Below the pieces are notes generated by a model, which searched no databases, had not been told where the DNA came from, and saw nothing but the letters and a program-made list of their open reading frames with translations. A DNA stretch of 51,853 nucleotides, from positions 195,171 through 247,023 of the forward strand of contig NZ_KI912266.1 in NCBI RefSeq assembly GCF_000235425.2, given 5' to 3'. This document shows, piece after piece, positions 2-49,759 of the stretch (positions are counted from its first letter, which is position 1; every line of letters starts with the position of its first letter). The position numbers and the translations under genes are program-made. The DNA is from Pseudofrankia saprophytica. Its GTDB lineage: Bacteria > Actinomycetota > Actinomycetes > Frankiales > Frankiaceae.

Positions 2-1528
2 GACGCGGCGAGCGGGCCGGCCGGCGCCGGCGGGCACGGTCCCGAGTCGGGAAGTGACGGACCGGCCGGAGCCGAAGCCCGCGGTGGGTATCCTGGGCCG
101 GCCGCGCGGACCTGGCGAGACCGGCTGCGCCACGGCTCCCTGATGATCACGCCGCTGCTCGCACTGATGCTGATCGCCGTCCTGATCCCGGTGGTGCTCG
201 GGCGCTCGCCCGCGCCAAGCCCGACGCCGGCCTCGCTTGCCACCGAGGTCGCCACGTCCGCCGACAAGATCCGTTCCACCGACGCGAAGGTCGCCGACGC
301 GCTGAGCCTCGCCGCCTTCCGGATCAGCCCGGCGCCGGCCGCCCGGGCAAGCCTGCGCACCTCGTTCGCCGGCGCCGCGGCGACCCCGTTGCCCGGCCAC
401 ACCGCGTCGGTGCTTGGCGTCGCCGTGAGCCTCGACGGCCGGCTCGCCGCCACCGCCTCCGCCGACGGCACCACCCGTCTCTGGGACCTCGCGGCCCTGA
501 CCGGCCAGGCCGGGGAAGTGGGCTCCCGGGAAGCCGGCTCCCGGGATCCCGCTTCCCAAGAGGCTCTGCCAGCGGAGCCGGCCGCCCCGGCGGGGACGGC
601 GGGGACGGCGGGGACGGCGACGCCGCCCAGGCCGCTCGCGGTCCTGCGCGGTCACGACGGCTGGGTCACGGCCGCCGCCTTCAGCCCGGACGGGACCCTG
701 CTCGCCACGGCGGGCTATGACCGCACCGTGCTCCTGTGGAACGTGAGCAACCCGGCCAACCCGGTGAGGGTCGCGACGCTGACCGGCCATGAGGGCTACG
801 TGCTGTCCGTCGCCTTCAGCCCGGACGGCGGGCTGCTGGCGACGTCCGGGTACGACGACACCGCGCGGATCTGGGACGTCGCCGACCCGGCACACCCGAC
901 ACAGCTGAGCGTCCTGACCGGCCATACCGGCTGGGTACGTCAGGTGGCGTTCAGCCCCGACGGCCGGCTGCTGGCGACGGCCAGCACGGACCGCACGGCC
1001 CGTCTCTGGGAGATCGGCGACCCGCGCCATCCCCGCCAGCTCGCCACGCTGTCCGGTCACACCGACTACGTGTGGGCGGTGGCGTTCAGCCCCGACGGCC
1101 GCCAGCTCGCCACCGCCGGCTACGACGGCGTCGCGCGTCTCTGGGACGTCACCGATCCGGGGCACCCGCGCCCCCTGGAGACGATCAGGGCGGATTCCCA
1201 CTGGGTGCTCGCGCTGGCCTTCAGCCCCGACGGCCGCACCCTCGCCACCGCCGGCCGTGACGACACGGTCCATCTCTGGGACCTCACCACGAGCGGTCGG
1301 CCAGCCCCCGTCGGGCAGCTCTCCGGCCACACCGACTGGATCCAGGACCTGGCCTTCACCCCCGACGGCCGGTCGACCCTCACCGTCGCCGCGGACCACA
1401 CGGCGCGGCTGACCCCGCTCGATGACGCCACCCTCCTGGCGACCGCCTGCCGCACCGGATCCAACCAGCTCGATGCCGTCCAGTGGCAGCACTACATTCC
1501 CACCGCCCCCTACCGTCCCGTCTGCTGA
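2..1528 (+). CDS. Membrane-anchored WD40-repeat protein, 5' end missing
   Basis: The frame is open from the left edge of the window, so the true start lies outside it; the first internal ATG is at 143. From that ATG the protein begins with a membrane segment (residues about 2-20, MITPLLALMLIAVLIPVV), preceded by a basic WRDRLRHGS stretch that predicts a cytoplasmic N-terminal part. A linker follows, containing an 'ADALSLAAFRISPAPAARASL' type segment common in actinobacterial WD40 proteins. Seven WD40 units then follow, with recurring GH, FSPDG and LWD cores. That is enough for one seven-bladed propeller. The protein ends with a family-typical QWQHYIPTAPYRPVC tail. WD40 propellers are protein-binding platforms. 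In actinomycetes this arrangement often follows a kinase, TIR or STAND ATPase domain, which here would be off the window. Partner and function are unknown. Confidence 0.88.
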   Translation, partial: DAASGPAGAGGHGPESGSDGPAGAEARGGYPGPAARTWRDRLRHGSLMITPLLALMLIAVLIPVVLGRSPAPSPTPASLATEVATSADKIRSTDAKVADALSLAAFRISPAPAARASLRTSFAGAAATPLPGHTASVLGVAVSLDGRLAATASADGTTRLWDLAALTGQAGEVGSREAGSRDPASQEALPAEPAAPAGTAGTAGTATPPRPLAVLRGHDGWVTAAAFSPDGTLLATAGYDRTVLLWNVSNPANPVRVATLTGHEGYVLSVAFSPDGGLLATSGYDDTARIWDVADPAHPTQLSVLTGHTGWVRQVAFSPDGRLLATASTDRTARLWEIGDPRHPRQLATLSGHTDYVWAVAFSPDGRQLATAGYDGVARLWDVTDPGHPRPLETIRADSHWVLALAFSPDGRTLATAGRDDTVHLWDLTTSGRPAPVGQLSGHTDWIQDLAFTPDGRSTLTVAADHTARLTPLDDATLLATACRTGSNQLDAVQWQHYIPTAPYRPVC

Positions 1529-3698: not shown

Positions 3699-3755
3699 CA
3701 GGTGCCGGAGACAGGTGCCAGCCACAGCTACCAGCAACAGGTACCGGAGACAGGT
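3699..3755. repeat. Two-copy direct repeat (CAGGTRCCGGAGACAGGT)
   Basis: CAGGTGCCGGAGACAGGT (3699-3716) recurs as CAGGTACCGGAGACAGGT (3738-3755), a 39-bp period with one mismatch. The second copy ends next to the stop codon of the minus-strand methyltransferase-like gene. The related words AGCCACAG and CAGCAACAG lie between. This looks like local tandem duplication between two convergent gene ends. No long hairpin is visible. Confidence 0.6.
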
Positions 3756-6181
3756 CAGGAGGGGCGGTCGGGTTTCTGGTTGCGGTCGGAGGCCTGACCA
3801 CCGTTGCGGCCGGAGGCCCGGTGGCGGGGCTCGTGCCGGTCGGCGGCGAAGGCACCGCGGCGGCGGCGGGGGACGCCAGAGCGGTCGAACAGGGGTGGCT
3901 GGCCGGGTGCGCCGAGCTCGGCCGGTCGGCCGGAGTCCGGCGGATGGACCGACGCGCCTGGCGGGATGGACTGGCCGGCGGGAATCGGCCGACCCGGCTG
4001 GATCGGCGTCACCGACTGGGCCGGGCTCGACGGTCCCCCACCGGCCAGCGGCGGGGGAAACGGCGACGACACCGGCGACCGGACGGACGCGCCACCGGTC
4101 GAGGACGGGTCGAACAAGGCCGGGTCGAGCATGGACGGGGCGGCCAGGGGCGACAGCGGTGGCGACGACGGAAGCGGGGACGGCGAGGGAGGCGGTAGTG
4201 ACGGAGCGGGTAGTGACGGAGTCGGTATCGGCGCCAGCGGCGACGGGGTCAGCAGGACGGCGCCGGCGCCCGCGCCCGGCGGGACCGACAGCGCGAGCGG
4301 CTCACCCGGAGGCGGCACGGGCGGAGGCGGTGGCACGGGCGGCACGGGCGGAGAGGGCGGCACGGACCACCCGGCGCGGGCCCGCCGCGGCGGGTCGGCG
4401 GCGGACTGGCCGGGGGTCCACAGCGAGGGTTCCTGGTGGCCTGGGCCGCTGGCGACGATGTCCGGCCCGTCGGCGTGGTGATGTGGCCGGTGACGGCCGC
4501 GAAGTCGCTCGTCGGCTTCCTGGCCGGCGCCGGGCCTCCGGCTGGCGGTGCCACCGGCCGCCGGACCGCCGCCGGTGGAGCCTGGCGGAAGGGCCAACGC
4601 CCGAGCCCCACCGTCACCGTCGCCGCTCATGCCGAGGTCGCCGCCGAGCGAGCCGTGGACGGCGCCGTCGGGGCCGTCGGCGCCCGGGCCGCTGCCGGGC
4701 GGCAGGGCCAGCCGGCCGAAGGCGCCGGCCGCGGCCGGGTCTGCGAGCTGGGTGCGGCGGCGTTCCTCCTCCTGGGCGAGCCGGGCCCTGGCCTGCTCGT
4801 AGCGGCTCGGGCCGCGGCGCAGCCTCGCCCGCAGCCGGGAGTCGGCGGAGCGGGCGGCGGCGACCAGGCGCGGTTCCTCCAGCCGGGCGCCCAGTGCCTC
4901 GGCGGCCATCGCCCGCTCGGCGGCGAGTTCCCGTTCGAGCTGGGCGATCCGGTCGGACTTCTCGATGTCGAGCGCGACGAGGCGCATGCGCTCGGCGTCG
5001 AGCTTCATCCATTCCTGCTGGTGCAGCTGGGCGGCGGCCATCGCATCGTCACGGGTAGCCACGGCCCGCAGGTACAGCTCGATCCGGTTGCGCTCCAGCC
5101 GGGCCAGCAGCGGGTTGGCCACCCAGGGCGACAGCAGCTCGGCGACCCTGGTCGCGAACGGTGCCCGCCGGTCGACGACGACCCCGAGGCCGAGGACCGG
5201 CGCGACGGTGAAGAACCGAAGCTCGGGGTGGCCGGCGACGAACTCCTCGACGGCGGTGCGCACCCCGTTGCGCGGCCCGCCCTCGGCGAGCGCCCACGCG
5301 TAGGCGCCGCCGCCGCGCATCCCGCGGCCCAGGACGGCGTCGGACGCGTCGAGCGTCACTCCGGCGTCCCAGGAGTGCGGCTGAAGGTCGGCGTCGGTGA
5401 GGCGGTCGGGGGCCCGGTACTGGTCGCGCCGGCCGGTGGGCCAGCCGACGTCGTGGACGATGACCAGCGGGAACGTGGTCCGGCCGAACTCGTGGACGGC
5501 GTCGTCGACCGCGCCGAGCGTGGCGGCGACGGTGGCGTAGTTCGCGTCGCCGTCGATCAGGTAGGCGTCGGTCGGGGTGTGCCCCTCGAGCCCGGCGGCG
5601 CCGTGGTCGCGTACCACCTCGATGTCCAGGCCGCGCCCGGCGCTCGGCACCCGGCCCGGCTCGAGGTCGACGACGAGGAGCCGGCCGCCGCCGCCGGCGC
5701 GGAGCAGGTCGACGAGCAGGCTGGTCGTCGAGCCGTTCTCGGCGCCGAGCAGGGTGATGCTGCGGGCGCCGGCCGCGCCCAGCAAGGGCAGCCACACCTC
5801 CCGCAGGTCGACGACCGACCGCAGCGGCATCGGCTGGCTACCGCCGCGGTTCGCGGCGCTCGGGTCGTAGCCCTGGACCGCGCCGCGGCCGCCCGGGCCG
5901 TACACGGCGATCTCGCCAGCACCGGGTGCACCGGGCGAACCAGCCGCACCGGCCGCGTCGACGGCCGCCGCCAGGTCGGCGAAGCTCGCCCGCAGGGCGC
6001 CTTCCCCGGGCCCGGCGCCGTCGGTACCGGGAAGGCGCAGGGGGCCGGTGTTCGCCGACGCGGTCGAACGGACGTAGGGGCGCGCGGTGTGGGAGATGGG
6101 CTGGTCGTCCAGGCCATCCGGCCCGTCGAGGCCGTCGGGGCCTGCCGGCTCGGCCGGGACAGTGTTCGGTGTGTCGTTCAC
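3755..6181 (-). CDS. SAM-methyltransferase-like protein with coiled coil and long Pro-rich tail
   Basis: An 808-residue protein. Residues about 118-345 look like a class I SAM-dependent methyltransferase of the Methyltransf_24 type: LLGAENGSTTSLLVDLL (144-160) as the glycine-rich motif I, LLVVDLE (168-174) as the acidic strand-2 end, DAYLIDGDANY (205-215) and IVHDVGW (241-247). Residues about 350-440 form a charged helical or coiled-coil stretch (IEKSDRIAQLERELAAERAM). From about 460 to the end it is proline/serine/glycine-rich and probably disordered. It lies 88 bp after the HAD gene on the same strand, so the two are likely co-transcribed and part of the glycan locus. Methylation of a sugar, or capping of a glycan chain, is plausible but inferred. 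The tail is unusually long for the family. Confidence 0.8.
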   Translation of the reverse strand: MNDTPNTVPAEPAGPDGLDGPDGLDDQPISHTARPYVRSTASANTGPLRLPGTDGAGPGEGALRASFADLAAAVDAAGAAGSPGAPGAGEIAVYGPGGRGAVQGYDPSAANRGGSQPMPLRSVVDLREVWLPLLGAAGARSITLLGAENGSTTSLLVDLLRAGGGGRLLVVDLEPGRVPSAGRGLDIEVVRDHGAAGLEGHTPTDAYLIDGDANYATVAATLGAVDDAVHEFGRTTFPLVIVHDVGWPTGRRDQYRAPDRLTDADLQPHSWDAGVTLDASDAVLGRGMRGGGAYAWALAEGGPRNGVRTAVEEFVAGHPELRFFTVAPVLGLGVVVDRRAPFATRVAELLSPWVANPLLARLERNRIELYLRAVATRDDAMAAAQLHQQEWMKLDAERMRLVALDIEKSDRIAQLERELAAERAMAAEALGARLEEPRLVAAARSADSRLRARLRRGPSRYEQARARLAQEEERRRTQLADPAAAGAFGRLALPPGSGPGADGPDGAVHGSLGGDLGMSGDGDGGARALALPPGSTGGGPAAGGTASRRPGAGQEADERLRGRHRPHHHADGPDIVASGPGHQEPSLWTPGQSAADPPRRARAGWSVPPSPPVPPVPPPPPVPPPGEPLALSVPPGAGAGAVLLTPSPLAPIPTPSLPAPSLPPPSPSPLPSSPPLSPLAAPSMLDPALFDPSSTGGASVRSPVSSPFPPPLAGGGPSSPAQSVTPIQPGRPIPAGQSIPPGASVHPPDSGRPAELGAPGQPPLFDRSGVPRRRRGAFAADRHEPRHRASGRNGGQASDRNQKPDRPS

Positions 6182-6269: not shown

Positions 6270-9248
6270 TCACCGCAGGCCTCCCAGCTGTCGCATCACC
6301 CGGCGGGCAGCCCGGCGAGGCAGCTGCGGCCCGGAGGCCGAGCCCGCCGCGGCAGGCGCGGGAGCGGCCACTGGGTCCCCCCGGATCCCCATCCAACCAA
6401 AGGCGAACTCGACGTCAATTGCGTACGTGCCACCCAACTCTGGCATGCCGGGCAGATCCAGGTTGTAGACGAGTTGCGGGTCGTCGTCGAGGATTTCGAC
6501 CAAGTTGGGCTGCAGTATTCGCAGTCCCACCAGGTTGAGAACAATGCCGCGCCTACGGTCCGCCAATCCGGCGCCGCCGACCGCCCGGGCGGGGATACTG
6601 CCTCCCACCACATCCGGAAGCGAACCCGGCCCGTCGAACGCGGTGATGGTGATCTGTCGAGGCTCACCCGAGCCGACGACATGGAAGCCGAGGGTGAGCC
6701 AGTCGAGCCGGAGCAGGCCCCGCCGGCCGGCGGGATCGACCCGGACGCGGCGCACGCCGACGGCGTCGACGACCCGCAGCCGCACCAGCGACAGCCCGTC
6801 CCGGCCGGCGTAGGGCACCGCGGTGGCCTTGGGGCCGCGGGCGAAGTCCGCGCCGGTGTCCACGTACACCTCGACGGGGCCGGCCGCGGCCGGCGCGGAC
6901 AGCTCCCCTGGGTCGATCCCCGCGGCGGCCGCGAGCTCGGTGACGACCGCCAGCGGCCGGTTCGCGACGGCGGCGACGGCCGCGGGCCAGGTCGCCTCGC
7001 GCAGCGGCAGCTCCGCCAGGCCCGCCGGGCTCAGATAGGGCATCCGCCTGATCAGCTCGGCGGGCAGCAGGCCCCGGCCGTCGTGCTCGGCGGGTTGGGC
7101 TGGCTGGGCGGGCCCACGCCGGCCGGCGGGTGCCGGGGCACTCGACGCCTGGATGCCGATCGGCTCGTCGTCGTCGCCGTCATGGCGCCAGGAACCGAAT
7201 GCGGCGGCCTCCGCCGCCGTCGGTCGGGCGACGAAGCGGGCCAGCATGCGCAGCAGCGCGAGCCGGGCGCTGTCACCGCCCAGCGACGGCAGCGCGCTGT
7301 CGGGGCTGTCCAGGCTCTCCGCGCGCCGGCAGCGCAACCACTCCTGCTGGAAGGCGCGGGCGCCGTCCTGGGCCGCCGCCCGCTGCGCGAGCTGGGTGCG
7401 GCTGGTCCGGGTGAGGCCCAGCAGCGGGGTGGACGTCTCGTCGAACGAGGCGAGCCGACCCGTGTCGGCCATGGCGACCTGCTCGACGACCGCCGGGGCG
7501 CGCAGCAGCTGCCCGGCGAGGCGCGCTGGCTGGCCGCCGGAGGCGAGGTAGCCCTCCATCCGGTGGCCGGCGAGCCGGTGCTCGAGCGCGACGGGACCGG
7601 TCGCCAGGTAGAGCCCGACGGGTTTGACCTCGCGGCCGGTGGCGGTGAGCAGCCGGGCGAGCAGCGCCTGGGTGGTCCCGTCCCAGCCGAGATCGACGAG
7701 CACCGCCGGGCCCCGCTCGGGCAGCCGTTCGTCCAGGTAGCGCAGGAACCGTTCGCGCAGCCGCTCGGCGGCCAGCACGATCTCGCCGCGGACGCGGTCG
7801 TCCCGGCTGAGCGTCTCCAGCAGCTCGTCGAGGATCTCGTCGAGCAGCCCGGCCGGCACGTCCAGCCGGCGGCCGGCGAGGGCGGAGATCCCGGGGGCGG
7901 CGGCGAGGTCGACCCGTAGCCGGCGCAGCAGCGCCCCGACGGTGCCCACCGCGCCCCCGGCGCCAGGAGCCGGGCCGGGGCCGGCGTGCGCGGGGCCGGT
8001 GCCGGCATGCCGCAGGAAGGCTCGCAGCTCCTCGGGTGAGGCCTCGAAGACGTTCGCCAGCGCGCACACCTCGCGCGACGCCCACAGCGGCCGGGCGGCG
8101 ACGCCGGCGTCGCGCCCGGGGCCCTCCAGCAGGCTCGCGACGAACCGGCCGGAACGCATCAGGCAGAACGCCTCGTCGGCGCCCAGCTCCCGGGTGCGCT
8201 CGACGACCCACTCGGCGAAGCCGGTGAACACCGGGCCGAACACGGTCGCCCCGGTGTCCCAGAAGCGGCGCAGCGCCCGGGGGACGGCGGCGGCGTCGGC
8301 CCGGTGCAGGACGCGGGCGCGCAGCGCGGTCAGCCCGAAGTCGCCGTACTCGAGATCGACGGGGGAAGCGTCGTCCGGGTCGTCGAGCAGTCCCTCCATC
8401 GCGAGCGTCGCGCGCAGGTCGCGGGCGGGACCGCCCCTGCGCATGATCGTGACGCTCCGCCCACCGCGGCCGTCATGGGCACCCGAACCGCCCGAACCGC
8501 CCAGCCCACCCGAACCACCCGAACCACCCAGCGCGCCCTGCCCACCGATCGGGTCCTGGCCGGCCGAGCCGGTGTGCTCGCCGACCGGGTCGCCGGCCAG
8601 GTATAGCAGCCTCGACGCGGGGGCGCCGGTCGCCGCGAGCACGTGGCCGAGCAGGCCGTCGGCCGTCCCGACGCCGATGTCGGCCGAGGTGAACGGGCCG
8701 GCGAACGGGATGCCCACGAGCTCCGGACGGGCCAGCAGGCGTTCCAGCTGCGCCGCGGACAGGCAGGTGTCGGCGACGAGGTAGACCGGCAGGCCCAGCT
8801 TGAGCGCGGCGAGCTCGGCGAGCTCGGCGGCGGCGAGGTCGACGCGGTGGGCCGCCCGCAGCGCGGCGACCTCGGCCTCCACCAGCGGGGCGAGCTCACC
8901 AGCGCCCGGCAGCGCGGGCAGCAGCAGCGTCCAGATCTCGTCCAGCCGCGGCGGGGGGCCGTTGTCATCGCCGGCGACGGCCGCGCCCTCGCGGGTGGCC
9001 AGCGCCCGGCGGCCGGCCTGGCGCTCGGCGAGGATCCTCAGCTGGGCGAACTGCGCGGGGGTGACGCCGGCCGGCAGCCGGCCGGCGGCGGCGAGCCGCT
9101 CACCGAGCAGCAGGAACACGTGCGCCGGGCGCGGTGCCAGCCGCCACAGCAGCGTGTCGAAGACGTCGACGACCAGCGCGTCGGCCCCGCCCGAGTCGAG
9201 GTGCGACCAGGCATCCCCCAGCCTCGCGTCGGTGAACACCGCGGTCAC
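6270..9248 (-). CDS. HAD-superfamily protein, COG5610-like, glycan-cluster associated
   Basis: The N-terminal half carries HAD-type motifs: VVDVFDTLLWR (motif I, nucleophile Asp about residue 28 from the chosen start), VYLVADTCLS (motif II-like) and LLYLAGDPVGEHT (degenerate GDN/SD motif). The second half (AVPRALRRFWDTGATVFGPV, FCLMRSGRF, LWASREVCAL) resembles the C-terminal region of COG5610 proteins, which occur in polysaccharide clusters and have no settled biochemical role. I chose the GTG at 9248. A GTG at 9374 preceded by GAAGG would add 42 residues, but that segment has many A/T third positions and no family look. Roughly 990 residues. It is divergent from the ABC exporter operon, so it probably belongs to the same surface-glycan system. 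A phosphatase activity is not certain because motif III is altered. Confidence 0.82.
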   Translation of the reverse strand: MTAVFTDARLGDAWSHLDSGGADALVVDVFDTLLWRLAPRPAHVFLLLGERLAAAGRLPAGVTPAQFAQLRILAERQAGRRALATREGAAVAGDDNGPPPRLDEIWTLLLPALPGAGELAPLVEAEVAALRAAHRVDLAAAELAELAALKLGLPVYLVADTCLSAAQLERLLARPELVGIPFAGPFTSADIGVGTADGLLGHVLAATGAPASRLLYLAGDPVGEHTGSAGQDPIGGQGALGGSGGSGGLGGSGGSGAHDGRGGRSVTIMRRGGPARDLRATLAMEGLLDDPDDASPVDLEYGDFGLTALRARVLHRADAAAVPRALRRFWDTGATVFGPVFTGFAEWVVERTRELGADEAFCLMRSGRFVASLLEGPGRDAGVAARPLWASREVCALANVFEASPEELRAFLRHAGTGPAHAGPGPAPGAGGAVGTVGALLRRLRVDLAAAPGISALAGRRLDVPAGLLDEILDELLETLSRDDRVRGEIVLAAERLRERFLRYLDERLPERGPAVLVDLGWDGTTQALLARLLTATGREVKPVGLYLATGPVALEHRLAGHRMEGYLASGGQPARLAGQLLRAPAVVEQVAMADTGRLASFDETSTPLLGLTRTSRTQLAQRAAAQDGARAFQQEWLRCRRAESLDSPDSALPSLGGDSARLALLRMLARFVARPTAAEAAAFGSWRHDGDDDEPIGIQASSAPAPAGRRGPAQPAQPAEHDGRGLLPAELIRRMPYLSPAGLAELPLREATWPAAVAAVANRPLAVVTELAAAAGIDPGELSAPAAAGPVEVYVDTGADFARGPKATAVPYAGRDGLSLVRLRVVDAVGVRRVRVDPAGRRGLLRLDWLTLGFHVVGSGEPRQITITAFDGPGSLPDVVGGSIPARAVGGAGLADRRRGIVLNLVGLRILQPNLVEILDDDPQLVYNLDLPGMPELGGTYAIDVEFAFGWMGIRGDPVAAPAPAAAGSASGPQLPRRAARRVMRQLGGLR

Positions 9249-9374
9249 CCCCGTTCCAACGTCGTCGGCCAGGTGACGGCGCGGGAGACGGCCGGTGGCA
9301 TCCCGGAAAGCCCCAGATGTCCGCGCCGCCGCGTACGGTCGCCTCCGACAGGTCACGAGGGAGGAGCCGGCCAC

Positions 9375-9746: not shown

Positions 9747-10897
<1,151 letters not shown>

Positions 10898-10898
<1 letters not shown>

Positions 10899-12220
10899 TG
10901 AGCCAGACCTCCCCACCCCTGCCCGTCGGCGCGGCCGCGACGTCGGCGCTCGCCCGGCCGGCCGGCGGTGGCGCGACCGCCAGCGTCAGCGCCGGGGTGC
11001 TGCCGACCGGGGGCGCGAGCGCCAGGGGCGGCCCCGCGGCCGGGGCCGGCCCGACCGTGATCCGCGCGACCGGCGTCAGCAAGAAGTTCGTCTCGTACCA
11101 CAAGCGGGCGACCAGCCTGAAGGAGGCGTTCGTCCGCCGCGGCGGCCTGGCCGGCGAGGACTTCTGGGCGCTGCGCGACATCAACATCGAGATCGCTCGC
11201 GGCCAGACCGTCGGCCTCGCCGGCGCGAACGGCTCCGGCAAGTCGACGACGCTCAAGGTGCTCGCCGGGATCCTGCGCCCGACCAGCGGCAAGGTCGAGG
11301 TGCACGGCCGGATCGCCTCGCTGCTGGAGCTGGGCGCCGGGTTCAACGGCGAGCTGTCCGGCCGGGACAACGTCTACCTGAACGCCTCCCTGCTCGGCCT
11401 GTCCAAGCGTGAGATCGACAAGCTGTTCGACTCGATCGTCGACTTCGCCGAGCTGTCACACAAGATCGACGACGAGGTGAAGCACTACTCGTCCGGCCAG
11501 TACGTCCGGCTCGGCTTCGCCGTCGCCGTGCACGTCGACCCCGACATCCTGCTCGTCGACGAGGTGCTCGCCGTCGGTGACGAGGCGTTCCAGCGCAAGT
11601 GCCTCGCCAAGATCGACGAGTTCCGGAACCAGGGCCGCACGATCCTGTTCGTCACGCACTCCCTCGACCTCATCGAGAACATGTGCGACCGGGTGGTCGT
11701 GCTCGAGGCCGGCAAGGTGATCCACGACGGCGCCCCGGCGGTCGGCACGAAGCTGCTGCGCCAGCGGCTGGGCAGCTCGCCGACCGAGGGCGCCGGCGCC
11801 TACGGCACGGCGACGGTCCGGCCGGAGACCGTCACCTTCAGCTCGTCGCCGGGCGGGGCGCCGCAGATCTCCTTCGACCCGGGCGACCCGATGACGATGA
11901 GCGTCGGCATCGAGGTCACCGAGGGCGCGCCCGAGCGGGTCCGCGCGCGCTGCGTCATCGTCGGCCAGAACGAGATCCCGATCTGGGTGATGGAGACTCC
12001 GCCCGCGGGTATCCCGGTCAGCCAGGGCTTCACCATCCTCGACTTCACCATCGGCTCGATACCAGCGCTGCTCGGCGCGTTCGCGGTGCGGGTGGAGGTC
12101 GCCGACGCGGCGACCGGCACGCCCATCACCTCCCGCCGCTTCCACGAGCTGTTCGGGATCAACAGCTCGCACGCCGAGGGCCTGGTCCACGTCGACTACG
12201 AGGCAAGGCCGCGGACATGA
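10898..12220 (+). CDS. ABC transporter ATPase, Wzt-like, with C-terminal glycan-binding-type domain
   Basis: A 440-residue ATP-binding subunit of a polysaccharide exporter. Residues 1 to about 50 are low-complexity. The nucleotide-binding domain follows, with Walker A GANGSGKST (109-117), the ABC signature YSSGQ (197-201, the variant typical of Wzt/TagH-type exporters), Walker B ILLVDE (217-222) and H-loop His254. From about 290 onward a beta-rich domain resembles Wzt C-terminal domains, which in O-antigen exporters recognise the modified chain end. This suggests that export here is substrate-gated, perhaps by the methylation or HAD pair encoded divergently (inference). The start GTG overlaps the permease stop, and the 3' end overlaps the next ATG (ATGA), so translation is coupled on both sides. 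Confidence 0.93.
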
Positions 12221-13884
12221 GCCACATCGCCGACCTGACCACCAGCGACCCAACCAGCAGCGGCCTGACCGGCAGCGGCCTGGCGCACGGCGGCCGCCAC
12301 GGCGGCGGCCTGACGACGGGTGCCGCGCTCGGCCCGGCCCCCGGGACGGTGGCCGCGGGTTCGCTGACCAAGGCCACGCCGGACGCCCCGAGCGCCGGCG
12401 GCGTCTCAGGTGCCCCCACGGGGGACGGCGCGATGCCCGCCGCCGGCCACCCCGACGGCGGCGGGTCCGGCGCCGGCTGGGGTGGGCGACCGGTGGCGAC
12501 CATCGTCATCGTCAACTGGAACGGCGCGCACCTGCTACCGCCCTGCCTGGACGCGGTCGCCAAGCAGAACACCGCCTTCGGCTTCCAGACCTGGGTCGTC
12601 GACAACGCGTCCAGCGACCACTCGCGGGCGATGCTCGCCGAGCGCTACCCCTGGGTGCGGGTGATCGAGTCGCCGAAGAACCTCGGCTTCGCCGGCGGCA
12701 ACAACCTGGCGCTGCGCCAGGTGAACACCGCCTACGCGGTGCTGCTGAACAACGACGCGGTCCCGGAGCCGGACTGGTTGGCCAACCTGCTGGCCCCGTT
12801 CGACCAGCCCGGCGGGGACAAGCTCGGCGCCGTCACCGGCAAGGTGGTGTTCCTGCCGCGGTTCCTGCGGCTGCGCCTGGAGACCGCGACCTTCTCGCCG
12901 GGCCCGCACGACTCGCGCTCGCTCGGCGTGCGAATCTCGTCGGTGACGGTCAACGGCCGCGACGTGCTACGCGAGGTCCTCTGGGAGAAGCTGACCTTCG
13001 GGGCCGAAGGGCCGCCCACCGCGCCGTTCTTCTGGACGCGCGGCACCGGCGAGCTGCTCGTGCCCGTGCCCGAGCGCGGGTCGGTCACGCTCGGGCTGGC
13101 CTGGGCGGCCGAGGCCGCGAAGACGGTCATGCTCAGCTGGGACGGGCACACCGGCCCGGCCGACGGCGGCCCCGGCTGGGCGGAGGCCGACGGCGGCGCC
13201 GCCCGCTTCGCCGCGCTGCCGGTCACCGGCACCGAGCCGAACGCCGTCTCGGTGACGATCGACGACACCGCGCCCCGCGTCGACGTCATCAACAACGTCG
13301 GCGGGATCGTGCTGCGCGACGGCTACGGCGCCGACCGCGGTTACCAGGAGGTCGACACCGGCCAGTTCGCCAACCCCGAGGAGGTCTTCACAGCCTGCGG
13401 GAACGGAATGGCGATGCGCGCGGCACTCGGCCACGACCTCGGCTGGTTCGACGACGACTTCTTCCTCTACTACGAGGACACGGACCTGTCCTGGCGGATC
13501 CGCTCGCGGGGATACAGCATCCGCTACGTCCCCGGTGCCGTGCTGCGGCACGTGCACTCGGCGTCGAGCGTCGAATGGTCGCCGCTGTTCGTCTTCCACA
13601 CCGACCGCAACCGGCTGCTCATGCTGACCAAGGACGCGACGCTGCCGCTCGCCCTGTCCGCGGTCGCGCGCTACCCGGTGACCACCACGTCGATCGCCGT
13701 ACGTACGCTGCGCCAGGCGTGGCGGGCGCGCAGCCGGCCGGCGGTGCGGCCCACGCTGCTGCGACTCAAGGTGATCGGGTCATACCTGCGACTGTTCCCG
13801 GCCATGCTCGGGAGGCGCCGGGAGATCGGGCGCACCGCGAGCGAACGGCGTCGATCGCTGCAGGACTGGCTGGTGTCACGATGA
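12217..13884 (+). CDS. Family 2 glycosyltransferase with inserted beta domain
   Basis: The start is the ATG of an ATGA overlap with the ATPase stop, giving 555 residues. Residues 1-90 are Gly/Ala/Thr-rich and probably disordered. The GT-A fold begins at VATIVIVNWNGAHLL, with VVDNASSDHS (127-136), NLGFAGGNN and the metal-binding region LLNNDAVPEPDW (176-187). A later acceptor-side motif FLYYEDTDLSWRIRSRGY is typical of rhamnosyl- and related GT2 enzymes of the WsaE/RfbN type. Between the two GT motifs lies a ~170-residue insert (LLVPVPERGSVTLGLAW ... VSVTIDDTAPRVDVINN) that looks beta-rich and is absent from minimal GT2 enzymes. It acts at the cytoplasmic membrane in assembly of the exported glycan. 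Its stop again overlaps the next ATG by ATGA. Confidence 0.9.
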   Translation: MSHIADLTTSDPTSSGLTGSGLAHGGRHGGGLTTGAALGPAPGTVAAGSLTKATPDAPSAGGVSGAPTGDGAMPAAGHPDGGGSGAGWGGRPVATIVIVNWNGAHLLPPCLDAVAKQNTAFGFQTWVVDNASSDHSRAMLAERYPWVRVIESPKNLGFAGGNNLALRQVNTAYAVLLNNDAVPEPDWLANLLAPFDQPGGDKLGAVTGKVVFLPRFLRLRLETATFSPGPHDSRSLGVRISSVTVNGRDVLREVLWEKLTFGAEGPPTAPFFWTRGTGELLVPVPERGSVTLGLAWAAEAAKTVMLSWDGHTGPADGGPGWAEADGGAARFAALPVTGTEPNAVSVTIDDTAPRVDVINNVGGIVLRDGYGADRGYQEVDTGQFANPEEVFTACGNGMAMRAALGHDLGWFDDDFFLYYEDTDLSWRIRSRGYSIRYVPGAVLRHVHSASSVEWSPLFVFHTDRNRLLMLTKDATLPLALSAVARYPVTTTSIAVRTLRQAWRARSRPAVRPTLLRLKVIGSYLRLFPAMLGRRREIGRTASERRRSLQDWLVSR

Positions 13885-16800
13885 CGGACCGCCCCGACGA
13901 CAGCACCCGCAGAGACCGCCCCTTCGACGCGCGCGGCCGAGACGGCCGAGACGGCTTGGACGGCGGCTGGTCCGGTGAGGAATGGTCGGCACAGCGGCCC
14001 GACTCGCTCGCCGCACCGGCGTCGAGGGAGTCGGCACCGATCGACTTCGACCCACTCGACCCGCTGGGCCTGAGCCGGCTCGGACGGCTGGACCCGCCAA
14101 ACCGTGTGGACCCGCTGGACCTGCCCACCCGCTACGACGAGAGCGCGCGGCCAGCCCCCCTCGGCTCGTCCTTCGACCCGCTGGACCGGCCGGGCATGCT
14201 GGAGCCCCTGCGCGGGCTGGAGCCGCTGCCGCCGCTGGGCGCTCCCATCCGGTCGGACGAGGGCACCAGGCCGGCACCGCCGCGGTCACGCCCGGACCCG
14301 TTCTCCTCGCTGGAACGCCTGTCGCCTTTGGAGTCCATGCCGTTGTCCGAGGCATGGTCGTCCCGCGAGCCGCTGACGTCGCCACGGGCCGCCGCACCGA
14401 CGGAACCGACCGACTCCGACTCCGCCGGCCAGGAGCCGTTCGGCCCGTCCTCCGGCCTGGAACCGCTCACGGGTCGTGGTGGCGGCATGCCGCTGGAAGG
14501 ACAGGTCATCGACCGGGCCACCGGTCGCCCGGTCGACATCGCCGCCCAGGACGCCCGTCTGGCCGGCGCGTCGTACTTCGGCTCGAGAGCGTCCGCCGAC
14601 GATGACCCCGACGCCAGGCTGGGCACGGTCGCGGCGCCGGGCGGTCACGGCCCCGCCGACGACGGCGACGACGACCACGGCGGCGTGTTCTCCCGTGTGT
14701 CCCTCGGGCTGGACGACGAGGCGCGTCAGATATTCGATGGCGCGGTACTCGACGAGGCGGTTCTCGACGAGGCGGTTCTCGACGACTCGGTCCTCGACGC
14801 GGTGGTACTCGACGCGGATCAGGTGATCGACGTCGACCCGGTGCTCGACGTGGACCTGCGCGAGCCACTCGACGAGCTGCCCCGCTGGGACCCCCTCTCC
14901 GACGACCTGCCGGACGAGCTGGCCGCGGGCCTCACCGCCGAGCCGACGCCGGCCGACGACCTGCTGGCTGGCCAACCGCCCGCGGTCATCCCCGACCCGG
15001 ACGCGGCCCCGATCGGGTTCGTCCCGGACGGCGGGTTCGTCCCAGACGGCGGGTTCGTGCCAGACGACGGGTTCGTCCCGGATCCTGGCGCCGCCTCCGG
15101 CGGTGGGCTGGTGTTCGACGATGGCCGGATCTTCGACGACGACCTCGCGGCCCCTTCCACCGCCTTCAGCGGCCCGATGTTCGACGACGGCCAGGTCTTC
15201 GACAGCGGCCAGGTCTTCGACAGCGGCCGGGTTCTCGACAGCGGCCGGGTTCTCGACAGCGGCCAGGTTCTCGACGATGGTCCGGCGTTCCCCGCGCCCG
15301 GCTCGTTCGACGACATCCCGGCGTTCCCGGCCCCCGGCTCGTTCGACGAGCGGCTTGGCTTCGTCGGTGCTCTGGGCGGCGACTACGGTGACGCGCTGCC
15401 CGCCGATGTCCTCGGCCCCGTGCTCGACGACGCTCGGCTCGAAGACGCTCGGCCGGCATCGGCCGGTAGCGACACTTACGAGCCCGCGATCGAGCTGCCC
15501 GACGCGGAGGCGGACGACATCGCCGACTCCGACCTCGAGAGCGCCGACAACGTCGACGCCCTCTCCGGCGTCGATCTCCCCATGGACAGAGGCGTCTTCG
15601 AGGCCGTCGACGAGCTTCCCGCGAGCGAGCTTCCCGTCGACGAGCTTCCCGTCGACGAGATTTCCGCGAGCGGGCCGGCACCGACGGGCGGGGATGGTGC
15701 CGCCGAGGTCGTCGAGGCCCCGGAGACTCCCGCGGCCGTCGCGGCCGTCGCGGCGGACGACGCGGTGCACATAGACGACGCGGTGCTCGTAGCCGACACG
15801 GGCCTCTCAGATCTCTCAGATCTCCCGGACGAAGCGGGCATCGACGAGACGGGTACCGACGGCGCCGGACCTCGCGGCGAGGACGACGCCGCGGAACCCC
15901 CCAACCCATCAGCGCCGGTGCATCCCGGCCAACCGACCGAGCGGGCGTTCATGCTGTACTCCGGTTTCTCCGGTGAGCGCCGGCACGTCGGTTTCCAGAT
16001 CGGGACCCTGCCGGAGCCGGCGATCCCGGAGCGCGCGGTGCCGAACCTGGCCGTGCCGTCGCCCGTGGCCGCCGAGCCGAGCGCCGCGGCACCCGTCTCC
16101 AGCGGCGGCGCCGTCCCGCTGCGCGCACGGTTCGCGGGCGGGCTGGCGGCCGGTGACGACCTGGCCGACGCTTACCGGGTGGCCCAGGACGAGAACGTCC
16201 CGACGCGGCAGCCCGCCCAGACGAGCGCGGCCACGACGACGCCCGCTGACGCCGCCGGCACAGCGACGGGCGCCGGCACAGCGGGTGTCGGCACTCCCGT
16301 GGCGGGCGAGGCGGCGGCGACCGGATCGATGATCATCCCGGCGGGCCGGCGGGTGCGGGCGGCCGTCTACAACCGGTTCTGGCACTCGATGGGCGGCGGC
16401 GAGCGCCACAACGGCATGATCGCCCAGGTGATGGCCGCGGACGGCGTCGAGGTCGACATCCTCGGTCACTCGGACGTCAATCTCGCCGACCTCGGCGCGC
16501 ACCTCGGCCTGGACCTTTCGGACTGCCGCTACGTCCGGATCCCGGACCGCGGCGAGGAGGACCTGTCGGTCCGGTCCGGTGAGTACGACCTGTTCATCAA
16601 CGGCTCCTACATGAGCCGGCTGCCGACCCGGTCGCGCAAGGCCGCCTACCTGTGCTTCTTCCCGACGCCGTTCGACCACGACATGGCGGCCTGGCGCAAG
16701 GCGGCCGTGCGCTCGGCCGGGCCGTTGCTGCGCGGGGTACGCCCGGCGGTCGACTTCGGCGTCGGCTGGTACCCGCCGGAGGGCGGCCGGGTGCGCCAGT

Positions 16801-17900
16801 GGCGCTGGTCGTCCGGGAACGCGGTGCTCTCGATCTCCCCCGGCAGCGAGCGGGTGCTGCGCGGAGACTTCGGCCGGCCCGGCGCTCCGACCGGCACCTC
16901 GCTGCGGATCATCGACGCCGACGGTGAGACGCTCGCCAAGATCGACGTGGGTGCGGAGTTCGTCGCGCACGAGATCCCGCTGCCCGAGTCGCCGACCGGC
17001 ACCGAGATCACCCTGGTCTGCGAGCCGTTCACCCCCGGCCCCGCCGACGTACGCGAGCTCGGCGTGGCCATCAGCCGGCCGCGGGTGACCGACGCGGACG
17101 AAAGCCCGCGCGCCAAGGTGGCGCTGCGCTTCCCCTGGCTGCTGCGCGACCCGCACGACCTGGCCTGGCTCGACCGCTACGACGCGGTGATGGCCAACTC
17201 CGACTACACCCGCGGCTGGATCCGGCGGATGTGGCGGCAGGAGGCCGACGTCCTCTACCCGCCGATCCAGGTCGAACGGCTGCACCCGGCGGCCACGCGG
17301 GAGAAGACCATCGTCACCGTCGGACGGTTCTTCGCACCCGGCCTCGGGCACGCGAAGCGCCAGCTGGAGATGGTCCAGTGGTTCGGCGAGCTGCATGCCA
17401 GTGGGACGATGCCCGGCTGGACGATGCACGTCGTCGGCGGCATGGAGGACTCGCAGAAGCCGTACGTCGAGCAGATCAAGAAGGCCGCGGTCGGTCTGCC
17501 GGTCGAGGTGCACCCGAACGCGGCCCGCGGCGACGTCGAGCGGCTCCTGTCCACGGGCTCGGTGTTCTGGTCGGCGACCGGGTGGGGCGAGGACGAGCGG
17601 CGCCGGCCGTGGACGGCCGAGCACTTCGGGATGACGACGGTCGAGGCGATGGCCGGCGGCTGCGTTCCGGTGGTCATCGACCGCGCCGGTCAGCGCGAGA
17701 TCGTCCGGCACAGCATCGACGGCTTCCGCTGGACGGAGCCGGACCAGCTGCTGTCGTTCACCCGCCGGCTCGCCACCGAAGAGGATCTGCGTGCCCGGCT
17801 GGCCACCGAGGCGGCCGGGCGGGCCGGGCACTTCTCCGACGCGGCGTTCGCCGAGCGCTGGCGTTCGATCGCCGCGCACCACCACCTGTACGAAGGCTGA
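13881..17900 (+). CDS. GT4 glycosyltransferase with 816-residue acidic repetitive N-terminal region
   Basis: The start is the ATG in an ATGA overlap with the preceding GT2 stop, giving 1339 residues. Residues 1-816 are strongly acidic, rich in Asp, Leu, Val, Pro and Gly, and contain several runs of short tandem repeats. No catalytic domain is visible there. From Met817 the protein is a GT-B enzyme: AAVYNRFWHSMGGGERHNG, then a ~130-residue beta-type insert, KTIVTVGRFFAPGLGHAKRQ, and the donor-side motif WTAEHFGMTTVEAMAGGCVPVV (E-x7-E type). The catalytic half alone (~520 residues) is normal size for mannosyl/rhamnosyl-type GT4 enzymes. The internal ATG at 16329 has no ribosome site, whereas the ATGA junction implies that the long form is made. 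The acidic half may be a scaffold or spacer. Its role is unknown. Confidence 0.88.
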   Translation: MTDRPDDSTRRDRPFDARGRDGRDGLDGGWSGEEWSAQRPDSLAAPASRESAPIDFDPLDPLGLSRLGRLDPPNRVDPLDLPTRYDESARPAPLGSSFDPLDRPGMLEPLRGLEPLPPLGAPIRSDEGTRPAPPRSRPDPFSSLERLSPLESMPLSEAWSSREPLTSPRAAAPTEPTDSDSAGQEPFGPSSGLEPLTGRGGGMPLEGQVIDRATGRPVDIAAQDARLAGASYFGSRASADDDPDARLGTVAAPGGHGPADDGDDDHGGVFSRVSLGLDDEARQIFDGAVLDEAVLDEAVLDDSVLDAVVLDADQVIDVDPVLDVDLREPLDELPRWDPLSDDLPDELAAGLTAEPTPADDLLAGQPPAVIPDPDAAPIGFVPDGGFVPDGGFVPDDGFVPDPGAASGGGLVFDDGRIFDDDLAAPSTAFSGPMFDDGQVFDSGQVFDSGRVLDSGRVLDSGQVLDDGPAFPAPGSFDDIPAFPAPGSFDERLGFVGALGGDYGDALPADVLGPVLDDARLEDARPASAGSDTYEPAIELPDAEADDIADSDLESADNVDALSGVDLPMDRGVFEAVDELPASELPVDELPVDEISASGPAPTGGDGAAEVVEAPETPAAVAAVAADDAVHIDDAVLVADTGLSDLSDLPDEAGIDETGTDGAGPRGEDDAAEPPNPSAPVHPGQPTERAFMLYSGFSGERRHVGFQIGTLPEPAIPERAVPNLAVPSPVAAEPSAAAPVSSGGAVPLRARFAGGLAAGDDLADAYRVAQDENVPTRQPAQTSAATTTPADAAGTATGAGTAGVGTPVAGEAAATGSMIIPAGRRVRAAVYNRFWHSMGGGERHNGMIAQVMAADGVEVDILGHSDVNLADLGAHLGLDLSDCRYVRIPDRGEEDLSVRSGEYDLFINGSYMSRLPTRSRKAAYLCFFPTPFDHDMAAWRKAAVRSAGPLLRGVRPAVDFGVGWYPPEGGRVRQWRWSSGNAVLSISPGSERVLRGDFGRPGAPTGTSLRIIDADGETLAKIDVGAEFVAHEIPLPESPTGTEITLVCEPFTPGPADVRELGVAISRPRVTDADESPRAKVALRFPWLLRDPHDLAWLDRYDAVMANSDYTRGWIRRMWRQEADVLYPPIQVERLHPAATREKTIVTVGRFFAPGLGHAKRQLEMVQWFGELHASGTMPGWTMHVVGGMEDSQKPYVEQIKKAAVGLPVEVHPNAARGDVERLLSTGSVFWSATGWGEDERRRPWTAEHFGMTTVEAMAGGCVPVVIDRAGQREIVRHSIDGFRWTEPDQLLSFTRRLATEEDLRARLATEAAGRAGHFSDAAFAERWRSIAAHHHLYEG
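14742..14816 (+). repeat. Coding 15-bp tandem repeat, five units
   Basis: Five in-frame 15-bp units encode variants of (A/S/V)VLD(E/A/D). Units 1-3 are nearly identical (GCGGTWCTCGACGAG) and units 4-5 are diverged. They lie in the acidic front half of the large GT4 protein. Slippage expansion is the simple explanation. The reading frame and the acidic character are preserved. Confidence 0.8.
15015..15083 (+). repeat. Coding 18-bp tandem repeat (GFVPDG)
   Basis: Nearly four in-frame 18-bp units encode GFVPD(G/D), with base changes confined mostly to third positions (GTCCCG, GTCCCA, GTGCCA). This indicates selection on the protein sequence after duplication. It is within the acidic region of the large GT4. 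Confidence 0.8.
15180..15281 (+). repeat. Coding 18-bp tandem repeat ((F/L)D(D/S)GQV)
   Basis: Five full 18-bp units plus a partial one encode FDDGQV, FDSGQV, FDSGRV, LDSGRV, LDSGQV and LDDG. The F to L switch and the Q/R alternation suggest successive rounds of duplication. A second duplicated block (PAFPAPGSFD, twice) follows at once. Confidence 0.8.
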
Positions 17901-17924: not shown

Positions 17925-19154
17925 GTGACGAGCGGCCAGGTGCCGCCGCTCCAGGTGCCGCCGCTGCGAGTCGTGCTCGACGGCACCCCCCTGCTGGGCC
18001 GGCGGACCGGTGTCGGGCGCTATGTCGAGAACCTGCTGGCCGGGCTGGCCGACCCCGCCCGCGACGAGCCGGCGACGCGTCCGCTGGAGCTCGCCGCCAC
18101 GGCGTTCACCTGGCGGGGCCTCGACGGTCTCGCCGAGGCGCTGCCACCGGGCGTCGCCCCCGCGGCGCGGCGGGTGCCGGCCCGGCTGCTGCAGGAGATC
18201 TGGGCCGGCGGCGAGCGGCTGCCCATCGAGCTGCTCACCGGGCGGGCCGACGTCGTCCACGGCACGAACTTCGTGCTGCCGCCGCTGCGCGCCGCGCGCG
18301 GCGTGCTGACCATCCACGACCTGTCCTACCTGCGCACCCCGGACACGGTCAGCGCCGCCTCCGCCCGCTACACCACGCTGGTCCCGCGCGGGCTGCGCCG
18401 GGCCGCGGAGGTCATCACCCCGAGCCAGGCGGTCGCCGAGGAGGTGATCGCGGCCTACCGGATCGACCGCGACCGGGTCACCGCCACTCCCCTCGGGGTG
18501 GACGACGCCTGGTTCGACGCGGTGCCGCCCAAGCCTGGCTGGCTCGAGGAGCGCGGTCTCCCCGAGCGCTACCTGCTGTTCGTCGGCACCGCCGAGCCGC
18601 GCAAGAACCTTCGGGTGCTGCTGTCCGCGCTGCGCGGCCTGCACGGGACCTACCCGGACATCCCGCCGCTGGTGCTGGTCGGCCCGCCGGGCTGGGGGGC
18701 GGCGCTCGACACCGCGGGGCTGCCCGCCAGGGCGGTCATCAGTGCCGGCTACCTCGACGAGGCCGACCTGCGTACCGCCGTCGCCGGAGCGATCGCGCTG
18801 TGCTTCCCGTCCCGCTATGAGGGTTTCGGCCTGCCGCCGCTGGAGGCACTCGCCGCCGGGACACCTGTCATCGCCGCGGACATCCCGGCGGTCCGCGAGG
18901 TGACCGGGCCGGTCGTCGGCGCCGCGGTCCGCCTCATCCCGCCCGCGGACGTCGACCGGCTGGCCGACGCCCTGCTCGACGTGATCGACGGTGGTCACGG
19001 CGGTCTGGCCGACGGCTCGGCGCGGGCCGGCGGCGCCGCCGTGGCCGGCCCCGCGGACCCGCGCCGCGCCGGCCGCGAACACGCCCGCACCTTCACCTGG
19101 CGCCGCACCGCCGCGCTGACCGCCGAGGTCTACCGCCGAGCCGCCGGCTCCTGA
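17925..19154 (+). CDS. GT4 family glycosyltransferase
   Basis: A 409-residue GT-B glycosyltransferase. The N-terminal acceptor domain starts LRVVLDGTPLLGRRTGVGRYVENLLAGL, a hallmark of the mannosyltransferase/WbaZ-like subgroup, with GRADVVHGTNFVLPP and LTIHDLSYLRTP next. The donor half has YLLFVGTAEPRKNLRVLL and the E-x7-E motif in FPSRYEGFGLPPLEALAAG. It would transfer a sugar from a nucleotide donor to the growing surface glycan on the cytoplasmic side. The GTG start lies 24 bp after the large GT4 stop, so it probably belongs to the same transcript. Its ribosome site is weak (GGCAGG). It closes the exporter operon; the next gene is convergent. Confidence 0.92.
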   Translation: MTSGQVPPLQVPPLRVVLDGTPLLGRRTGVGRYVENLLAGLADPARDEPATRPLELAATAFTWRGLDGLAEALPPGVAPAARRVPARLLQEIWAGGERLPIELLTGRADVVHGTNFVLPPLRAARGVLTIHDLSYLRTPDTVSAASARYTTLVPRGLRRAAEVITPSQAVAEEVIAAYRIDRDRVTATPLGVDDAWFDAVPPKPGWLEERGLPERYLLFVGTAEPRKNLRVLLSALRGLHGTYPDIPPLVLVGPPGWGAALDTAGLPARAVISAGYLDEADLRTAVAGAIALCFPSRYEGFGLPPLEALAAGTPVIAADIPAVREVTGPVVGAAVRLIPPADVDRLADALLDVIDGGHGGLADGSARAGGAAVAGPADPRRAGREHARTFTWRRTAALTAEVYRRAAGS

Positions 19155-49186: not shown

Positions 49187-49759
49187 GTACCGCCACTCCG
49201 CTCGAGTCGGGTATCCAGTGGTAACCACGAGTAGCCGAACACAGTCACCGGCCGACCGGGGTAGTCGATACGAGAGCCACGCCCGCGTTCCGCCGATGCC
49301 GTCGATCTCGTAATCCCCCCGTGAGAAGCGCCGCCCATGCCCGCCGTAAGCCGCGGCCGGATGGCTGGAGCGCGAATTCCTGTGGTCCTCTTCCCGGCTA
49401 GCTGGACACAGGGTCCGTCTCGGAAATAAGCAACGGATGCACAATATTGCCGCTCGTTTGCCAACCCTGAAGCGGTCGCAGATGCCGCGGCGGGCTCTGC
49501 CCTGACGAAGCCGTAACCGCTCTCATACGCCGGTCGGCCGGCATTTCCCCCGTCGGCGCCTACTCGGCGAGGCGGCCAGCGCGGCCCACCAACCGGTCTT
49601 CATCGGCCCGCCGGCACGACATCGTCATGTCGTACGCGCGACGTCCGATGTCCGACAACCGACCGCGAGATGCCGCAAGACGGCACGACCTCCTAACATC
49701 GGACACCGGCCCTGGGGATGGAGCGTGGGGCACCCGGGGACCCTTTGGGAGGGAAAGTC
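49187..49759. other. 570-bp intergenic region, AT-richer, with inverted repeats
   Basis: It lies between gtrA-like and the QGY-rich membrane protein gene. It includes AT-rich patches (GGAAATAAGCAACGG, CACAATATTGCC near 49420-49450), a perfect inverted repeat with arms ACGACAT and ATGTCGT (49616-49633, loop CGTC), and a wider pair GTCCGATG (49643-49650) / CATCGGAC (49697-49704). Reading frames here do not show coding bias. It is presumably a promoter or regulatory region and might encode a small RNA. Confidence 0.4.

Follow-up and report, generated by a model that had tools for sequence, protein, structure and literature searches.

Why does a glycosyltransferase with a catalytic part of normal size carry more than 800 acidic residues in front of it? 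The question is raised by a stretch of 51,853 nucleotides from Pseudofrankia saprophytica (contig NZ_KI912266.1, positions 195,171 to 247,023 of the forward strand), here denoted the window, which comes from an assembly of 9,978,592 bases in 2 contigs. A gene at 13881..17900 (+ strand) encodes a GT4 glycosyltransferase of 1339 amino acids, the first 824 of which (13881..16352, +) form an acidic, low-complexity N-terminal tail that is found only in Pseudofrankia. We propose, with a probability of about 0.5, that the tail is a translated and probably disordered arm that arose a single time, at the root of Pseudofrankia, and whose short conserved motifs would dock partners of glycan assembly. Throughout, Pseudofrankia denotes the window's genus, including records named Frankia nepalensis CN7 and Frankia sp. 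AgB1.9.

Coding status and distribution of the tail

The ATG of the GT4 gene shares the sequence ATGA with the TGA stop codon of the upstream gene, encoding a GT2 glycosyltransferase (12217..13884, +), and is followed by 1339 codons without a stop. The ATGA start and an uninterrupted GT4 frame were found in 7/7 Pseudofrankia genomes, and when all six frames of the tail region were tested, the GT4 frame alone was open in all seven. Coding-like GC content by codon position persists across the whole tail of the window strain. The ratio of non-synonymous to synonymous substitution rates (dN/dS; aligned codons, 21 pairs) is 0.49-0.80 in the tail and 0.06-0.37 in the core. The tail is coding sequence: codon-position GC, dN/dS and the sole open frame rule out a frameshift exposing a non-coding N-terminal part, which an earlier sequence-only reading of the window had named as a possible refutation. 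The common start and frame, the coding-like GC and the motif constraint described below bear out that reading in its claim that the whole long frame is coding from the ATGA overlap onwards.

The same reading had noted more than 800 acidic, repeat-bearing residues ahead of a GT4 part of normal size, and both statements hold. We counted 824 residues (to 16352), followed by a catalytic core of 515 amino acids in all seven Pseudofrankia (16353..17897, +). The core scores above the cut-offs of Pfam Glycos_transf_1 (PF00534, residues 1138-1311; 45.6 bits, cut-off 26.4) and PF13692 (35.1 bits, cut-off 27), and no NCBIfam model matched it at or above cut-off. The GT4 signature E-x7-E reads EHFGMTTVE in 7/7 Pseudofrankia, with both glutamates invariant in a 28-row alignment.

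A search for the same architecture in related genomes, as the sequence-only reading had suggested, found it in every readable Pseudofrankia (7/7; tails of 824-979 amino acids, or 823-978 when measured from the GT2 stop) and short tails elsewhere. In 28 of the 31 rows outside Pseudofrankia (30 genomes), counting from the GT2 stop gives a GT4 tail of -1 to 63 amino acids; the other three are not comparable, the GT2 stop being misplaced in L071 and a second GT4 gene, GT4b, lying in between in L049 and L078. One more Pseudofrankia row (G007, L055) starts only inside the region, where its contig ends, and is not part of the count. Among 20 non-Pseudofrankia rows, 15 have the GT2 stop within ATGA, 2 within GTGA and 1 within TTGA, and in 2 it is unreadable. 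The order Wzm-Wzt-GT2-GT4-GT4b was found in 31/39 rows, and the remaining 8 are ended by the contig or the fetched stretch, or are reordered (L049, L078). We considered independent long tails in L049 and L078 and rejected them, given the GT4b gene between GT2 and GT4. The position of GT4b also shows that the cluster has been rearranged in a related group. The GT2-GT4 pair is therefore conserved in relatives, with the long tail confined to Pseudofrankia.

Profile searches gave the same distribution. A profile of the whole tail matched 7 of 58 relatives, all Pseudofrankia (up to the best 15 candidates per genome scored). A profile of its longest motif, M5 (see below), gave 7 strong matches in the 58 relatives (E 1.2e-32 or lower), the next match standing at E 0.009 (up to the best 120 candidates per genome). 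In 296 genomes of the class, 5 strong M5 matches were found, all in Pseudofrankia (up to the best 23 candidates per genome in the rows shown); a match at E 8.7e-4 contains an internal stop codon and was taken as chance. Of 393 class genomes, 37 contain the GT4 core itself at an E value of 1e-60 or lower. The family accounts for 33 of these, and of the remaining four, G067 and G084 were left out of the tail comparison. In a core tree of 30 rows, which omits L055 and L068 (no anchor) and L075 and L076 (incomplete), all rows with the tail fall into a single group (100/100 support), requiring one change. On these comparisons, the long tail is restricted to Pseudofrankia and was gained once on the tree.

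Fusion with a known domain was considered and rejected, since at E values up to 1 none of the seven tails matches any Pfam family and the tail profile finds only the seven Pseudofrankia. The term 'fused', used in the sequence-only reading, is thus not quite accurate. In relatives this type of overlap goes with a short tail, and no tail-like sequence was found elsewhere, so the tail looks like an extension of an ancestral short tail rather than the product of a gene fusion.

Composition, motifs and repeats

The tail of the window strain contains 162 Asp plus Glu and 51 Lys plus Arg residues, with no lysine and no cysteine. All seven tails have a net charge of -0.10 to -0.14 per residue and 0-2 lysines. 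Among 245 open reading frames (ORFs) of at least 400 amino acids, taken in all frames from a genome sample of 20 x 20 kb and the window, the tail ORF ranks first for net acidity per 400 amino acids (90; runner-up 51). On a crude disorder scale, with a cut-off of our own choice, 76% of the window-strain tail and 82-99% of the tails of six relatives lie above the cut-off, compared with 21-30% of core positions. Charge-hydropathy places the other six tails slightly on the disordered (negative) side and the window strain at the border (0.003); in genome samples, home-made disorder scans could not tell real ORFs from those in the wrong frame. The disorder proposed from the sequence agrees with the composition and with the crude scale overall, less so with the borderline value and the ordered-scoring patches considered below, and judged by its composition the tail is probably disordered.

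The tail is rich in proline and glycine, and a crude home-made scan found next to no heptad signal (4/797 windows), hence no sign of a long coiled coil beside the GT4 catalytic domain of the kind that forms the ruler of WbdD (see below). Calcium-binding repeats carry GGxGxD, the signature of RTX proteins, or the EF-hand-like DxDxDG. Each tail contains 0-1 GGxGxD and 0-5 matches to the loose pattern D-x-[DN]-x-[DG], offering no RTX- or EF-hand-like array.

Alignment of the seven tails revealed six short motif islands that are kept in 7/7 Pseudofrankia in constant order, separated by spacers of varying length. These are M1, IxFDPxDPLGLSRL (residues 54-67; 14040..14081, +); M2a, PLDxPTR (78-84; 14112..14132, +); M2b, L[ED]PLPPL (113-119; 14217..14237, +); M3, EGxVIDRATGxP[VI] (206-218; 14496..14534, +); M4, RWDPLSDDLPxxLAxGLxxE (335-354; 14883..14942, +); and the longest, M5, of 49 amino acids, NPxxPVxPxxPxxxAFMxYSGFxGxRRHVGFQxGxLPxPxxPxRxVPxL (675-723; 15903..16049, +). 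M5 is near-neutral (net charge -1 to +1) and closest to the core, 91-130 residues ahead of it depending on the strain.

The ratio of amino-acid-changing to silent differences (pN/pS) is 0.09-0.33 in the islands, at a silent divergence (pS) of 0.24-0.42, and 0.30 in the core at a pS of 0.23. Because conservation was the criterion for choosing the islands, their low pN is in part built in; the silent divergence, which is not below that of the core, and a clustering test are independent of the choice of motifs. In that test, the best stretch has 16/20 ungapped columns invariant, which 0/2000 shuffles reached. Each tail contains 7-12 copies of the tripeptide [DE]PL, compared with 1.6-2.1 in shuffles (3.6- to 6-fold), and 0-5 of 1000 shuffles reached the observed count. 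The six motifs are under protein-level constraint.

The tandem repeats behave differently. Tandem Repeats Finder detected more arrays than the three 15- and 18-bp families first reported, although the unit sizes stood up, being 15 or 18 bp or multiples. In the window strain, the search gave a 15-bp array encoding AVLDE (14742..14814, +), which is not conserved between strains, 18-bp arrays encoding GFVPDG/D (15014..15079, +) and G[QR]V[FL]DS (15188..15275, +), and a 15-bp array encoding VDELP (15604..15659, +). Around 15188..15275 there are six imperfect VFDSG-like units, whereas the nearest relatives, P. asymbiotica and BMG5.36, have three there and arrays of their own at other tail sites; across the seven tails, both the position and the sequence of arrays vary from strain to strain. 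Repeats make up 8-22% of each tail and 0 bp of each core in 7/7 genomes. Repeat coverage is 21.5% in the window-strain tail, 1.5% in a 400-kb sample of its own genome and 3.3% in a Frankia sample. The densest 2472-bp stretch of the own-genome sample holds 318 bp of repeats against 531 in the tail, and Frankia stretches of this length hold up to 656 bp, so the density is unusual in its own genome and not unique in the family. Variation between copies had been thought to fall mostly at third codon positions; over five arrays, we counted 4/6/6 variable columns at positions 1/2/3. Nor do the repeats look like a functional element in their own right: they are strain-specific and GGxGxD is nearly absent, which leaves the suggested conserved cation-binding brush without support.

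The gene cluster and candidate partners

Upstream of GT2 lie genes for a Wzm-like ABC-2 permease (9747..10898, +) and a Wzt-like ATPase (10898..12220, +) of the ATP-binding cassette (ABC) type, both with putative starts; Wzm and Wzt models for galactan and teichoic acid export score below their own cut-offs. The GT2 start is most likely at 12217, in an ATGA overlap with the Wzt-like gene, and GT4b (17925..19154, +), the second GT4 glycosyltransferase of the operon, follows the GT4 gene. In Pseudofrankia, the four other operon proteins have cores that are on average slightly more basic, with the largest shift in Wzt (-9.9 vs -22.7 per 1000 amino acids), in a comparison in which the ranges overlap and kinship is ignored.

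The first half of the GT4 core contains an apparent insert of 113 amino acids (16767..17105, +; boundaries by eye), the end of which resembles part of GT2. GT2 (12892-12963, +) and GT4 (17028-17099, +) have in common the stretch F[ST]PGPxDxRxLGVxIS, at 54% over 24 residues, which may mark a related domain inserted into two glycosyltransferase folds that are themselves unrelated.

A second protein of the cluster, P0003 (3755..6181, - strand), is methyltransferase-like, with a match to Methyltransf_24 (18.1 bits, below the cut-off of 26.3), and has a C-terminal tail that is long only in Pseudofrankia. In the window strain this proline-rich tail comprises 364 amino acids (3755..4849, -) and ends in a conserved basic block of 45 amino acids, LFDRSGVP[RM]RRR...EPRHRA.GR...PDRP (3755-3892, -). 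The tail spans 282-440 amino acids in 7/7 Pseudofrankia, with 15-25% proline and a net charge of +6 to +7 in the end block, and 59-79 amino acids in 5/5 Frankia and Parafrankia genomes examined. The end block occurs once in the source genome, the other 15 matches having E values of about 0.5 or worse. Solved structures gave no credible match for P0003 or P0002, and a crude home-made heptad scan of P0003 gave no clear coiled-coil outcome. P0003 is a possible partner of the GT4 tail; casting it in the role of WbdD would be a guess, as the methyltransferase match is below cut-off.

In the comparisons made, the other five cluster proteins showed no genus-specific end extension of 200 amino acids. 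We also considered a general growth of tails in Pseudofrankia and saw no sign of it: 0/6 orthologous pairs outside the cluster differ by 200 amino acids at an end, in a small control with uncertain starts (13 pairs minus 5 of the operon, 1 for P0003 and 1 antisense-frame artefact).

Between P0003 and the exporter genes, a 1034-residue protein (6270-9374, -) without a Pfam, NCBIfam or PDB match is present in 11/11 cluster stretches examined and is divergent from the exporter operon; its start, by eye, looks HAD-like. Elsewhere in the window, a 455-residue protein (49718-51085, +) has a repetitive N-terminal half rich in Gly, Tyr, Gln and Pro, followed by a segment that by eye looks transmembrane-like. 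A WD40 repeat protein is encoded at 143-1528 (+) by DNA with a 135-bp tandem repeat, and a 24-bp perfect direct repeat in two copies (2134-2181, +) lies inside a DUF222/HNH ORF.

Readings of the tail and known systems

Glycan-assembly enzymes are thought to act as complexes, and the scaffolds known for them are folded or coiled-coil. We interpret the tail as a disordered arm for docking because its biased composition, repeats and constrained motifs match those of the noncatalytic arm of RNase E, and we assign it to the cluster's glycan-assembly complex because the enzymes of glycan pathways that depend on an ABC transporter assemble into complexes around a scaffold. The arm would have arisen on an ancestrally short GT4 N-terminal tail and would lengthen and shorten mainly as units of 15 or 18 bp are duplicated in tandem and in frame, letting its total length and spacers drift. 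Selection would maintain the acidic composition and about six short motifs serving as docking sites, and the arm would be a flexible scaffold that, as in RNase E, keeps partner proteins close to the catalytic domain. The partners may come from the complex that assembles the Wzm/Wzt-exported glycan, the candidates being GT2, GT4b, the exporter and P0003 with its basic-ended tail in the same genus. A scaffold or spacer, two of the roles that had been suggested from the sequence, fits the comparative evidence.

Several observations weigh against the docking arm. The spacers are almost neutral (pN/pS 0.90 at a pS of 0.43, a value that includes alignment error), and the crude scale rates some patches of the window-strain tail as ordered. 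The motifs have no known match in Pfam, nor M5 in solved structures. M5 has no detectable relation to the P0003 end block (hhalign probability 1.2%), so that a common docking partner is not indicated. Two start codons, ATG 691 (inside M5) and GTG 825, are common to all seven genomes, so an extra short form would be possible on sequence alone. Docking, the identity of the partners, true disorder and the role in glycan assembly are what we infer.

The near-neutral spacers would be expected if a permissive tail in a high-GC genome had been lengthened by replication slippage and was tolerated without a function. The strain-specific repeats agree with such nearly neutral growth, as do the equally repeat-dense places in the Frankia sample and the small repeat ATDAAATDAAA in the short GT4 tail of Frankia QA3. 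We nevertheless consider it unlikely, since it does not explain six islands kept in 7/7 at normal silent divergence, or a length and net charge that stay within narrow bounds in all seven tails. A function carried by bulk acidity and length alone, as in an electrostatic or entropic brush that aids solubility, keeps the enzyme off an anionic membrane or holds counter-ions, would fit the high and conserved negative charge, the scarcity of lysine and a composition retained while the sequence drifts. It leaves the invariant RWDPLSDDLP and the near-neutral M5 unexplained, and appears quite unlikely to us. That M5, the longest block, is also the nearest to the core might suggest a regulatory tail, whose motifs fold onto GT4 or are modified or cleaved to control activity in cis; the strain-dependent distance between the two makes this improbable. 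It is highly improbable that a short form, started internally near the core with the tail little or not translated, is the real enzyme: despite the two common start codons, Met817 (8 residues upstream of the core start), near which the sequence-only reading had allowed for a start, is not conserved across the seven, short-tailed relatives begin at an overlap of this type, the N-terminal part shares in the open frame, the codon-position bias and the motif constraint, and no Shine-Dalgarno-like match precedes candidate starts up to 80 codons from the core in any of the seven, or, by eye, Met691 in the window strain, an absence that weighs little since the ATGA start also lacks a well-spaced one by eye.

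The docking arm thus remains our preferred reading. A bolder and doubtful version adds P0003, so that two matched disordered arms, the acidic one of GT4 and the proline-rich, basic-ended one of P0003, would tether or condense the glycan assembly complex; if true, this would be a degradosome-style disordered scaffold for polysaccharide synthesis, both arms having grown in the Pseudofrankia ancestor. The six motifs provide concrete bait peptides for a partner search. We know of no disordered scaffold with microdomains on a glycosyltransferase, and among the matches listed in a search of open-access titles and abstracts, a scope that excludes subscription papers and preprints, there was no account of such a tail.

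Among known systems, work on RNase E of gamma-Proteobacteria describes a noncatalytic region that is disordered and biased in composition, carries tandem repeats and harbours microdomains, and proposes that slippage lengthened it and that some segments were fixed as binding microdomains (PMC4435900). Like that arm, which ranges there from under 500 to over 800 residues, the GT4 tail is long, biased in composition and attached to an enzyme; in both, tandem repeats are the proposed source material, and microdomains that are short and conserved lie amid fast-drifting sequence (PMC4435900). Unlike it, the GT4 tail is N-terminal rather than C-terminal, acidic, on a glycosyltransferase and present in one genus only. 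The two are not known to be related in sequence, and scanning the tails against Pfam revealed no such relation; the likeness is one of working, not of homology.

In ABC-transporter-dependent glycan pathways, PMC11231755 describes enzyme complexes on a membrane-associated scaffold protein. The WbdD/WbdA system resembles the present cluster in its ABC-exporter-dependent setting with several glycosyltransferases, and in having one protein with a scaffold region apart from the catalytic part, as the GT4 tail may be; WbdD, as outlined there, has a ruler made of coiled coil together with an amphipathic helix, unlike the Pro/Gly-rich tail with almost no heptad signal (PMC11231755). In-frame repeats that evolve fast, are independent in origin and yield disordered protein are also described for Borg elements (PMC9879509), where repeats in ORFs are said to be under very strong selection, whereas in the GT4 tail the repeats are the changing part. 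Compared with the GT4 family (Pfam Glycos_transf_1), the E-x7-E core is alike, and the apparent insert and the 824-residue tail differ.

An enzyme combined with a disordered scaffold and microdomains is thus an architecture already known in general, and its occurrence on a glycosyltransferase would be new. An origin of this kind has been proposed for RNase E, yet is hard to observe at its beginning. If our reading is correct, the GT4 arm, gained once and with closest relatives that are short-tailed, would offer a clean comparison for how a repeat-born scaffold acquires docking motifs.

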